Shown here: positions 33,225 to 47,986 of the stretch, in pieces
Layout: every line of letters starts with the position of its first letter
Numbering within the stretch: the stretch's first letter is position 1
From: Actinomycetota bacterium
Lineage (GTDB): Bacteria; Actinomycetota; Geothermincolia; Geothermincolales; RBG-13-55-18
Reading direction: 5' to 3'
Length of the DNA: 64,000 nucleotides
NCBI GenBank assembly: GCA_014360645.1
Contig: JACIXD010000004.1
Location: 124,001 to 188,000 of the forward strand
Made by a program: the position numbers and the translations under genes
Notes under the pieces: generated by a model
What the model was told of the DNA's origin: nothing
What the model saw: the letters and a program-made list of their open reading frames with translations, nothing else
Database searches by the model: none

Positions 33225-33618
33225 GGGAGCCCCCGGCGACCAGGGGGCGCGGTGACGGCCGGCGGCGGAAACGCGGGTTCTTCACGGGATCCCCCGGCAC
33301 CCGGGGGGATGTTACGGGAAGCGGCAAAGGCCCATGTTGTCCCGGGAGCCCCCGGCGACCAGGGGGCGCGGTGACGGCCGGCGGCGGAAACGCGGGTTCT
33401 TCACGGGATCCCCCGGCACCCGGGGGGATGTTACGGGAAGCGGCAAAGGCCCATGTTGTCCCGGGAGCCCCCGGCGACCAGGGGGCGCGGTGACGGCCGG
33501 CGGCGGAAACGCGGGTTCTTCACGGGATCCCCCGGCACCCGGGGGGATGTTACGGGAAGCGGCAAAGGCCCATGTTGTCCCGGGAGCCCCCGGCGACCAG
33601 GGGGCGCGGTGACGGCCG
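33225..33618. repeat. 119-bp tandem repeat with two hairpins per unit, 3.3 copies
   Basis: The period is exactly 119 bp: the A of GACCAGGGGGC recurs at 33242, 33361, 33480 and 33599. Copies appear identical. Each unit contains GCCCCC-N8-GGGGGC and the near-perfect ATCCCCCGG-N3-CCGGGGGGAT. The array starts after the dnaK promoter region and ends about 9 bp from the ubiA stop codon. No T tract follows either hairpin. Apparent open frames in it shift with each unit and are not genes. Confidence 0.95.
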
Positions 33619-35397: not shown

Positions 35398-35741
35398 AAG
35401 GAGGCCTCCTCATCCATGCGCTCACCATGGCGTCGCAGGCCCGCGGCCCCATCCGGAGCGGAGCCGCCTCTCTCCCTCTCTTGCACGGCGCCGGGAACAG
35501 TATACGCCCGCGTTCCGCCCATGGGCAGCGTACGTCCATCCACGCCCCCATCCCGCGTCCGGCGAACCCGTGCCCTACCGGAGCTTCGCGAGCCCCCGCG
35601 CGGATGCCGTTCGGCCCGGCATAATCCTCCCTCTCCTCTTTTCCTCCCTCTCCTCCTTTTCTCCCTGACCGCCGCCAGGCGGCTTCCGCGGCCGCGCGCC
35701 CCTCGACTCCTCCGGACGCACCTGCAGAGCAGCGATACAGC
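35398..35741. other. GC-rich part of the divergent spacer before the sigma factor gene
   Basis: This stretch lies between the UDG-like gene (minus) and the regulatory region of the sigma factor gene. Several frames are open but none has a ribosome-binding site or recognisable product. Confidence 0.4.
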
Positions 35742-35826
35742 ATGTTGTGGAATCAACATCAATTATTCCACAAAATGTTGACATGTCCTATATATATGGT
35801 TTATCATATCCCAAAATATACAACAT
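35742..35826 (+). promoter_or_regulatory. AT-rich promoter/operator region of the sigH-like gene
   Basis: The motif ATGTTG or its complement CAACAT occurs four times: 35742-35747, 35754-35759, 35775-35780 and 35821-35826. The first two form an inverted repeat, and GTGGAAT (35747-35753) pairs with ATTCCAC (35765-35771). A promoter TTGACA (35778-35783) with TATCAT (35802-35807) is spaced 18 bp. The arrangement looks like operators wrapped around a promoter; the regulator is unknown. Confidence 0.65.
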
Positions 35827-35853
35827 GTGGGCTCAGAGCGAGGAGGGGATGGC

Positions 35854-36510
35854 TTGCCAGTAAGGGAAAAGACCAGGCCTTACTATCTGGAGATCTCCTA
35901 TGACGAGATGAGCGACGAGGACCTCATCGCCCAGACCAGACGCGGGGATTCCCGAGCGCTGTCGTACCTGCTCAACAAGTACCAGTACCTTGTCCACGTG
36001 AAGGCAAAGTCATATTTCCTGGACGGCGCGGAGCACGACGATACCGTGCAGGAGGGCATGATCGGCCTCTACAAGGCGATCAGGGACTACAAGTTCAACG
36101 ACATCTGCTCCTTCCGTTCCTTCGCCGTTCTCTGCATCACGCGCCAGATCATCACCGCGGTAAAGACCTACACCCGCAAGAAGCACAATCCCTTGAGCTG
36201 CTACCGCCCCCTGGAGGCCAGCGTCTTCGACGAGAGCGGAGACCTCGTCTATTACGCCGGGGGGAACATCGCCACCAAGGCCGAGGACCCGTTGGACATC
36301 TTCATCTTCGAGGATGAGGTTTCCAGGATCATCCATATCCTGAGGGAAAAGCTGAGCGGGCTGGAGTGGAATGTCCTGGTCTCCTATCTCGAGGGAAAGA
36401 GCTACCGGGAGATCGCGGACGAGATAAACCGCGATACCAAGGTGGTGGACAACGCCCTCTGCCGCATCAAGGCCAAGATAAAGAACCACGTGGAGCCCCT
36501 GCTCAACTGA
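35854..36510 (+). CDS. Sigma-70 family factor closely resembling SigH (Spo0H)
   Basis: From TTG 35854, eight bases after GAGGAGGGG, the protein has 218 residues, the length of Bacillus SigH. Region 2 reads LLNKYQYLVHVKAKSYFL, DTVQEGMIGLYKAIRDYK and CITRQIITAVKTYTRKKH; region 4 has VLVSYLEGKSYREIADEI and DNALCRIKAKIK. These closely follow the SigH sequence I know from Bacillus. SigH directs transition-state and early sporulation genes in Firmicutes, but the role here is unknown. A GTG nine codons upstream has no ribosome-binding site. Confidence 0.9.
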   Translation: MPVREKTRPYYLEISYDEMSDEDLIAQTRRGDSRALSYLLNKYQYLVHVKAKSYFLDGAEHDDTVQEGMIGLYKAIRDYKFNDICSFRSFAVLCITRQIITAVKTYTRKKHNPLSCYRPLEASVFDESGDLVYYAGGNIATKAEDPLDIFIFEDEVSRIIHILREKLSGLEWNVLVSYLEGKSYREIADEINRDTKVVDNALCRIKAKIKNHVEPLLN

Positions 36511-47260: not shown

Positions 47261-47986
47261 TTGGAGCTCAAGGTAGGTTGCTGCGGATTCCCCCAGGCCC
47301 GCCAGATCTATTACGAGACCCTGCCCCTGGTGGAGCTCCAGAAGACCTTCTACCAGCTGCCGCGGGTCAAGACGGCCCAGAAATGGCGTCAAGAGTCCCC
47401 GCCCCATTTCGAGTTCACCCTCAAGGCTTGGCAGCTCATCACCCACCGGCCCTCCAGCCCCACCTACAAGCGCCTCACCCATCCCATACCCGAGGAGTCC
47501 CGTGATGCCTACGGCTCCTTCAAACCCACGCCGGAGAACTTCGCCGCCTGGCGCGAGACCCTGGAGGTGGCCACGGCTCTGGACGCGGAGATCGTCCTCT
47601 TCCAGACCCCTGCGACCTTCACCCCCGGTCCCAAGAACATCGCCCAGATGCGCGAGTTCCTGTCCACCATAGAGCGCGGCAGGCTGCAGCTGGCCTGGGA
47701 ACCCCGCGGCCAGTGGGATGCGGAGGAGGCGGGGAGGATCTGCCGCGAGCTGGACCTGTTGCACGTGGTCGACCCCTTCCGGGGTCGGGAGAAGGCCGGG
47801 CAGATCATCTACTGGCGCCTGCACGGCATCGGCAGCTACCGGCACCGTTACACCGACCAGGAGCTGGGGAAACTTGTGACCATGCTGCGCAGGAGCAAGA
47901 AGAAACGCGCCTACGTGCTCTTCAACAACATCAACATGTGGGAGGACGCCCAGCGCCTGCTGGAGCTGTGGAGACGACGCTCCTGA
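47261..47986 (+). CDS. DUF72 family TIM-barrel protein
   Basis: A 241-residue protein of the DUF72 (YecE-like) family: VGCCGFPQARQIYY at the N-terminus, then FEFTLKAWQLITH, QLAWEPRGQWD and YWRLHG. The family is widespread and its biochemical role is not settled. The start is TTG 47261 after GAGGTGCTGAG. It may be cotranscribed with no other gene; it converges on the HEPN-like gene. Confidence 0.85.
   Translation: MELKVGCCGFPQARQIYYETLPLVELQKTFYQLPRVKTAQKWRQESPPHFEFTLKAWQLITHRPSSPTYKRLTHPIPEESRDAYGSFKPTPENFAAWRETLEVATALDAEIVLFQTPATFTPGPKNIAQMREFLSTIERGRLQLAWEPRGQWDAEEAGRICRELDLLHVVDPFRGREKAGQIIYWRLHGIGSYRHRYTDQELGKLVTMLRRSKKKRAYVLFNNINMWEDAQRLLELWRRRS

Follow-up and report, generated by a model that had tools for sequence, protein, structure and literature searches.

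The island upstream of a SigH-like sigma factor gene in the window (the whole stretch of DNA analysed, 64 kb in length) is very probably, as judged from its sequence, an operator of NrdR, in which two tandem pairs of predicted boxes on the promoter would confer dATP-dependent repression. In the preliminary description the island had been read as a cooperative operator of ATGTTG/CAACAT hexamers for an unidentified regulator. A multi-site operator on this promoter is strongly supported by the present analysis; its unit is a 16-bp palindrome arranged in tandem pairs, and the regulator is nameable, the sites being predicted NrdR boxes according to a matrix trained on nrdR promoters, genome searches and an E. 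coli control.

Architecture of the promoter island

By footprinting, the true unit was found to be the 16-bp palindrome, of which the hexamer is only half. The palindromes are arranged as one tandem pair, A-B, and a second, D-C, with 33 bp from start to start and a 17-bp spacer in both (Table 1). Boxes A, B and C have the conserved C and G at a distance of nine positions; box D is without the conserved G of the right half and is weak in the window (score 4.4). Box A is the top single site of the 64-kb window (score 16.05) by the nrdR-trained matrix. The site of RNA polymerase is overlapped by B at the -35 element, by D in the spacer and by C at the start point, which is placed putatively at about 35814. 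The true start codon of the gene is probably the TTG at 35854, as suggested by its position after GGAGGGG and by the conserved TTG after the Shine-Dalgarno sequence; it is preferred to the GTG at 35827, which sits within box C. The deduced protein exceeds the cut-off of NF006148 (208 bits) and, with 223 bits, falls below that of TIGR02859 (294.8).

Table 1. Coordinates of the promoter island and the SigH-like gene in the window
Feature	Position	Strand	Remark
NrdR box A, ATACAGCATGTTGTGG	35735..35750	.	upstream member of A-B; predicted
NrdR box B, CCACAAAATGTTGACA	35768..35783	.	holds -35; 33 bp from A; score 11.43; predicted
Degenerate NrdR box D, GTCCTATATATATGGT	35785..35800	.	in the -35/-10 spacer; predicted
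NrdR box C, ATACAACATGTGGGCT	35818..35833	.	at about +4 to +19; score 12.55; predicted
-35 element TTGACA	35778..35783	+	invariant across 11 family orthologues
-10 element TATCAT	35802..35807	+	18-bp spacer; TATNAT-like in orthologues
Shine-Dalgarno GGAGGGG	35842..35848	+	AGGAGGG block invariant in 11 family promoters
Second hexamer CAACAT	35754..35759	-	incidental; missing from the other 10 family sequences
Inverted repeat TTGTGGAAT/ATTCCACAA	35745..35773	.	by-product of neighbouring boxes A and B
SigH-like sigma factor gene	35854..36510	+	TTG start, 218 aa; NF006148 237.2 bits

The four hexamers of the preliminary description were all recovered (ATGTTG at 35742-35747 and 35775-35780, CAACAT at 35754-35759 and 35821-35826), and the copy at 35775-35780 shares TTG with TTGACA, as had been claimed. 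The island (35735-35833, 99 bp) is indeed AT-rich (68% AT), and its hexamer number is above chance even given this AT content (four versus a shuffle mean of 0.33, with at least four in 0 of 5000 dinucleotide shuffles). In the 64-kb window the hexamer occurs 32 times versus 10.8 expected, a count inflated by direct repeats of ~119 bp at 33334-33612, which have ATGTTG in each and account for three of the occurrences. Across the 11 family orthologues only hexamers 1, 3 and 4 are conserved, as halves of boxes A, B and C, respectively; both copies of the inverted hexamer pair described upstream of the -35 element exist, but the CAACAT at 35754 is not conserved. The second inverted repeat, GTGGAAT (35747-35753) and ATTCCAC (35765-35771), is likewise present, with arms reaching 9 bp when extended to TTGTGGAAT/ATTCCACAA, but its left arm is not conserved and its left extension is confined to the window and, largely, G001. 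The repeat is incidental, because any B box placed after an A box will produce ...TTGTGG...CCACAA..., lengthened here by AAT/ATT. A DnaA-box reading of TTATTCCACA, based on the general consensus, was dropped, the conserved portion being the TCCACAA of box B.

Conservation of the probable operator and searches with nrdR boxes

The sigma factor was searched for in 39 relatives and matched in 33. The family of the window comprises 15 searched genomes, 11 of which hold a close orthologue (identity 84-93%, the window itself excepted); the four without a match (G004, G008, G012 and G013; 62-89% complete) were excluded from the tandem-pattern searches. The same-order set (n = 14) consists of these 11 and three more same-order genomes. 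Phylogenetic footprinting, which had been proposed in the preliminary description, found the multi-site operator kept in all 14 same-order orthologues. In the alignment of the 11 family promoters the conserved blocks were RYACAnnATRTnGTRY (block A), nCACAAnATRTTGACA (block B, including the -35 element) and ATACnAnATRTGGGCT (block C), with D as the spacer ending in ATGG. Box A is kept in 13 of 14 same-order orthologues and box C in all 11 family members; the GGG variant of box C is also found in box 2 of some nrdR promoters.

Pair scores of the 230-bp sigH upstream regions exceeded those of 1000 of 1000 shuffles for each of the 14 same-order genes. Support outside the order is weaker. For the class-level orthologues (n = 9), the numbers of 1000 shuffles scoring at least as high as observed were 16, 4, 1, 0, 0, 8, 890, 216 and 6, that is, six at 0-8, one at 16 and two without signal, and among the seven with signal, L023 (6 shuffles) has its best pair elsewhere than at D-C; no pair signal was found by the same comparison in any of six more distant sigH genes. 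Box D precedes box C by 33 bp in 13 of 14 orthologues within the order and by 32 bp in four of the six recognisable cases outside it, and the offset of the nrdR pair is 33 bp in 14 of 14 within the order and 32 bp in all 11 having boxes outside, the boxes being not found in the nrdR promoter of G031 (outside the order). The nrdR and sigH D-C spacings thus shift together between the order and its outside, which is counted in favour of an NrdR operator.

In the genome-wide motif search, which had also been proposed, single boxes were not specific, because the block-A pattern with one mismatch gave 23 rows versus 19 in the reversed control; one match (C6:39316-39329) was nevertheless upstream of nrdR, ending 26 bp ahead of the nrdR match. 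At the nrdR loci two boxes exactly 33 bp apart were present in 14 of 14 (from 13 of the 14 same-order genomes searched), with box 1 between the -35 and -10 elements and box 2 close to the start point. This set leaves out a second NrdR match in G015, which scored below the cut-off, and the genome G017, which is without NrdR. The matrix was built from the 28 boxes of nrdR promoters only, without any sigH sequence, and was run on both strands of the window. Its top four distinct sites include A, C and B; the fourth, at 47929 (score 13.1), was rejected as a single box within an ORF. The best pair of the window was A-B (27.5), versus 6.4 for the best outside the island and 8.5 for the maximum of the reversed window. 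As a positive control, two 10-kb regions of E. coli K-12 were searched with the matrix, and the best pairs fell directly upstream of nrdH and nrdD (scores 31.9 and 31.5, both with a 31-bp offset), versus 12.1 and 6.3 for the best pairs listed elsewhere; both are places of known NrdR operators.

With the tandem 33-bp pattern at up to one mismatch, nrdR was matched in all 11 family genomes having sigH, and sigH itself in 10 of them; at up to two mismatches sigH was matched in 11 of 11 (G005 needs two). Seven other places match at up to one mismatch across the 11 family genomes, of which G001:C20:713 belongs to site X (described below) and G005:C7 and G009:C5 precede mraZ. Extra matches at up to two mismatches are not evidence by themselves, since the control matches are of the same order. 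Control of nrdJ (class II RNR) by NrdR was considered and dropped, no convincing pair being found at 10 loci within ~1.5 kb upstream of the domain match (best scores 11.9 and 11.6).

NrdR as the proposed regulator

An NrdR is encoded by the genome (TIGR00244, 190.6 bits versus a cut-off of 124.65), and the NrdR of the clade matches the solved NrdR structures. The G000 protein retains D15, R17 and RRRR at 26-29, which are the DNA contacts of NrdR in the available text of PMC9110341, where the boxes are also described as having conserved G-C pairs nine apart and the two boxes as being about three helical turns apart. NrdR loaded with dATP and ATP is reported to form tetramers bridging two boxes, and ATP alone gives no binding (PMC9110341 and PMC12051234, available text). 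Spacers of 14-17 bp were bound by all four NrdRs assayed, the usual spacer elsewhere being 15-16 bp (PMC12051234, available text), and the 17-bp spacers of A-B and D-C fall inside this limit. Points that speak against the NrdR reading are this longer than usual spacer, the weakness of box D, the thinner support beyond the order, a target other than an RNR gene and the lack of a convincing pair at nrdJ.

On this basis we infer that the operator is bound by NrdR, a Zn-ribbon/ATP-cone repressor, and that its control is negative, depends on dATP and extends to the presumed targets of the sigma factor. The two pairs span from upstream of the -35 element to the start point; at high dATP, NrdR tetramers loaded with dATP/ATP would link the boxes of each pair, introduce a kink into the DNA and obstruct RNA polymerase, and with falling dATP the ATP-loaded NrdR would release the DNA and the sigma factor would be made. 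Repression is the simplest reading because of the promoter elements covered by B, D and C, and high dATP is predicted to shut off the SigH-like gene if the island is an NrdR operator.

Binding of NrdR with activation, or mere tuning, of sigH is unlikely: it would suit a pair A-B lying mostly upstream of the -35 element and has a precedent in the activation of topA in P. aeruginosa (PMC4409342, available text), but the -35 element is inside B, the start point is covered by C, and the D-C geometry is nearly that of the nrdR promoter pair. Lower still is the probability that the nrdR and sigH promoters are bound not by NrdR but by some regulator whose palindrome is almost the same. What leaves room for such a regulator is that NrdR is identified from sequence and that other conserved sites, X and the one before mraZ, are found away from RNR genes; against it, the nrdR matrix recovers the E. 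coli nrdH and nrdD operators, a pair is present on nrdR itself, as in autoregulation, and the C..G core nine apart with three-turn tandem spacing is the hallmark of NrdR (PMC9110341 and PMC12051234, available text). Least probable of all, and disfavoured by the alignment, the nrdR matrix, the tandem-pattern search and the E. coli control, is cooperative binding of the ATGTTG hexamer by an unidentified factor, as one of the four hexamers, above chance as they are in number, is not conserved and the conserved columns extend to 16-bp palindromes.

Among known systems, the NrdR operators of RNR operons in S. coelicolor (nrdRJ and nrdAB) and E. coli (nrdHIEF and nrdDG) are likewise formed by 16-bp palindromes with C..G nine apart, and the boxes there are also in tandem at ~three helical turns and overlap the promoter (PMC9110341 and PMC12051234, available text); in the operator predicted here, in contrast, the target is a sigma factor gene, there are two pairs and not one, and the spacer is 17 bp and not 15-16 bp. 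The island is not upstream of an RNR gene, and the same motif does precede nrdR-nrdD; location at an RNR gene characterises the known NrdR targets and is no attribute of the site itself. NrdR is presented as specific to RNR genes in the available text of PMC9110341 and PMC12051234. The topA gene of P. aeruginosa is the one extra target seen with backing from a mutated box, and is likewise not an RNR gene, but there a single box mediates activation and no sigma factor is involved, whereas the island has two tandem pairs (PMC4409342, available text). The rpsP gene has been predicted as a target in Lactococcus (PMC7051946, available text), and in the available text of PMC5430705 SigH and NrdR are named together only as parallel regulons. 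In the NrdR literature searched, no sigma factor gene was found with an NrdR operator, and such a target appears to be unreported there; an earlier prediction is possible in Rodionov and Gelfand 2005.

The SigH (spo0H) of Bacillota belongs to the same protein family, but its gene differs upstream: at 79 further SigH loci from named genomes, almost all of them Bacillota, no comparable NrdR-type pair was found ahead of the gene (best 14.3). For all 80 named-genome SigH loci the median was -5.8, and the top score (19.7) is from the same contig as the class-level L023. Spo0A_C was not found in 30 of 30 genomes of relatives searched, with B. subtilis positive as the control, and the sigma factor is thus not a sporulation switch of known kind. 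A competence link was rejected: although comEC is found in 13 of 14 genomes, a simple promoter pattern of SigH type, taken from the general consensus, gave two matches at 13 loci, not conserved between them. In G002 the final 24 residues of the sigma factor are matched a second time, in a short stretch just past the gene (C6:33044-33115) that resembles a partial duplicate.

If the NrdR reading is true, an alternative sigma factor is tied to a regulator regarded as acting almost solely on RNR genes, and through a conserved double operator on its gene global transcription would respond to the level of dNTPs. The system would lend itself to studying the function of a SigH-like factor in bacteria without Spo0A.

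Further tandem pairs in the family

The pattern with a 32-bp offset gave few matches, the reversed control giving a single match, in G005, and none in the other 10 genomes. Set Y is a tandem pair with this offset that immediately precedes a cobaltochelatase-like ORF in all 11 family genomes (scores 30-44; in G000 at L272:2671-2718, G000:C11:87173), and the ORF matches TIGR02442 with 718 bits, slightly below the cut-off of 779. Class II RNR requires adenosylcobalamin, so B12 supply fits RNR biology, and the role of the cobaltochelatase is probably coenzyme B12 supply for class II RNR. Set X is a strong pair in 11 of 11 family genomes, including G001 at 33 bp; it lies between an rtcB-lipoprotein pair and, in G000 (L271:2631-2678, G000:C5:75133), a tRNA-Ile gene, and no target gene was found for this intergenic site. 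The X pair is usually followed by a DnaA-box-like TGTGCATAA. In 11 of 12 family genomes (all but G003) a degenerate tandem pair stands ahead of mraZ-rsmH, at about -801 to -752 upstream of rsmH (L253), with 0-9 of 1000 shuffles scoring at least as high as observed; this case is tentative, because the boxes are of poor quality and lie further upstream than the apparent promoter.

That the NrdR of the family acts on multiple targets (nrdR-nrdD, the SigH-like gene, the cobaltochelatase, the intergenic site and perhaps the mraZ division/cell-wall cluster) as a regulator of DNA-synthesis physiology, with dATP setting a sigma-factor programme in addition to the amount of RNR, is suggested tentatively and with slightly less than even confidence. 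NrdR-type pairs were also seen in single genomes, at L287:786 (G002:C62:7388, score 32.5) and L273:1404 (G009:C20:8406, score 29.6). The nrdD ORF (1513 aa in G000; L248, G000:C6:39800-45500) contains two insertions that look, by eye, like inteins, their junctions being HN-C and HN-S.
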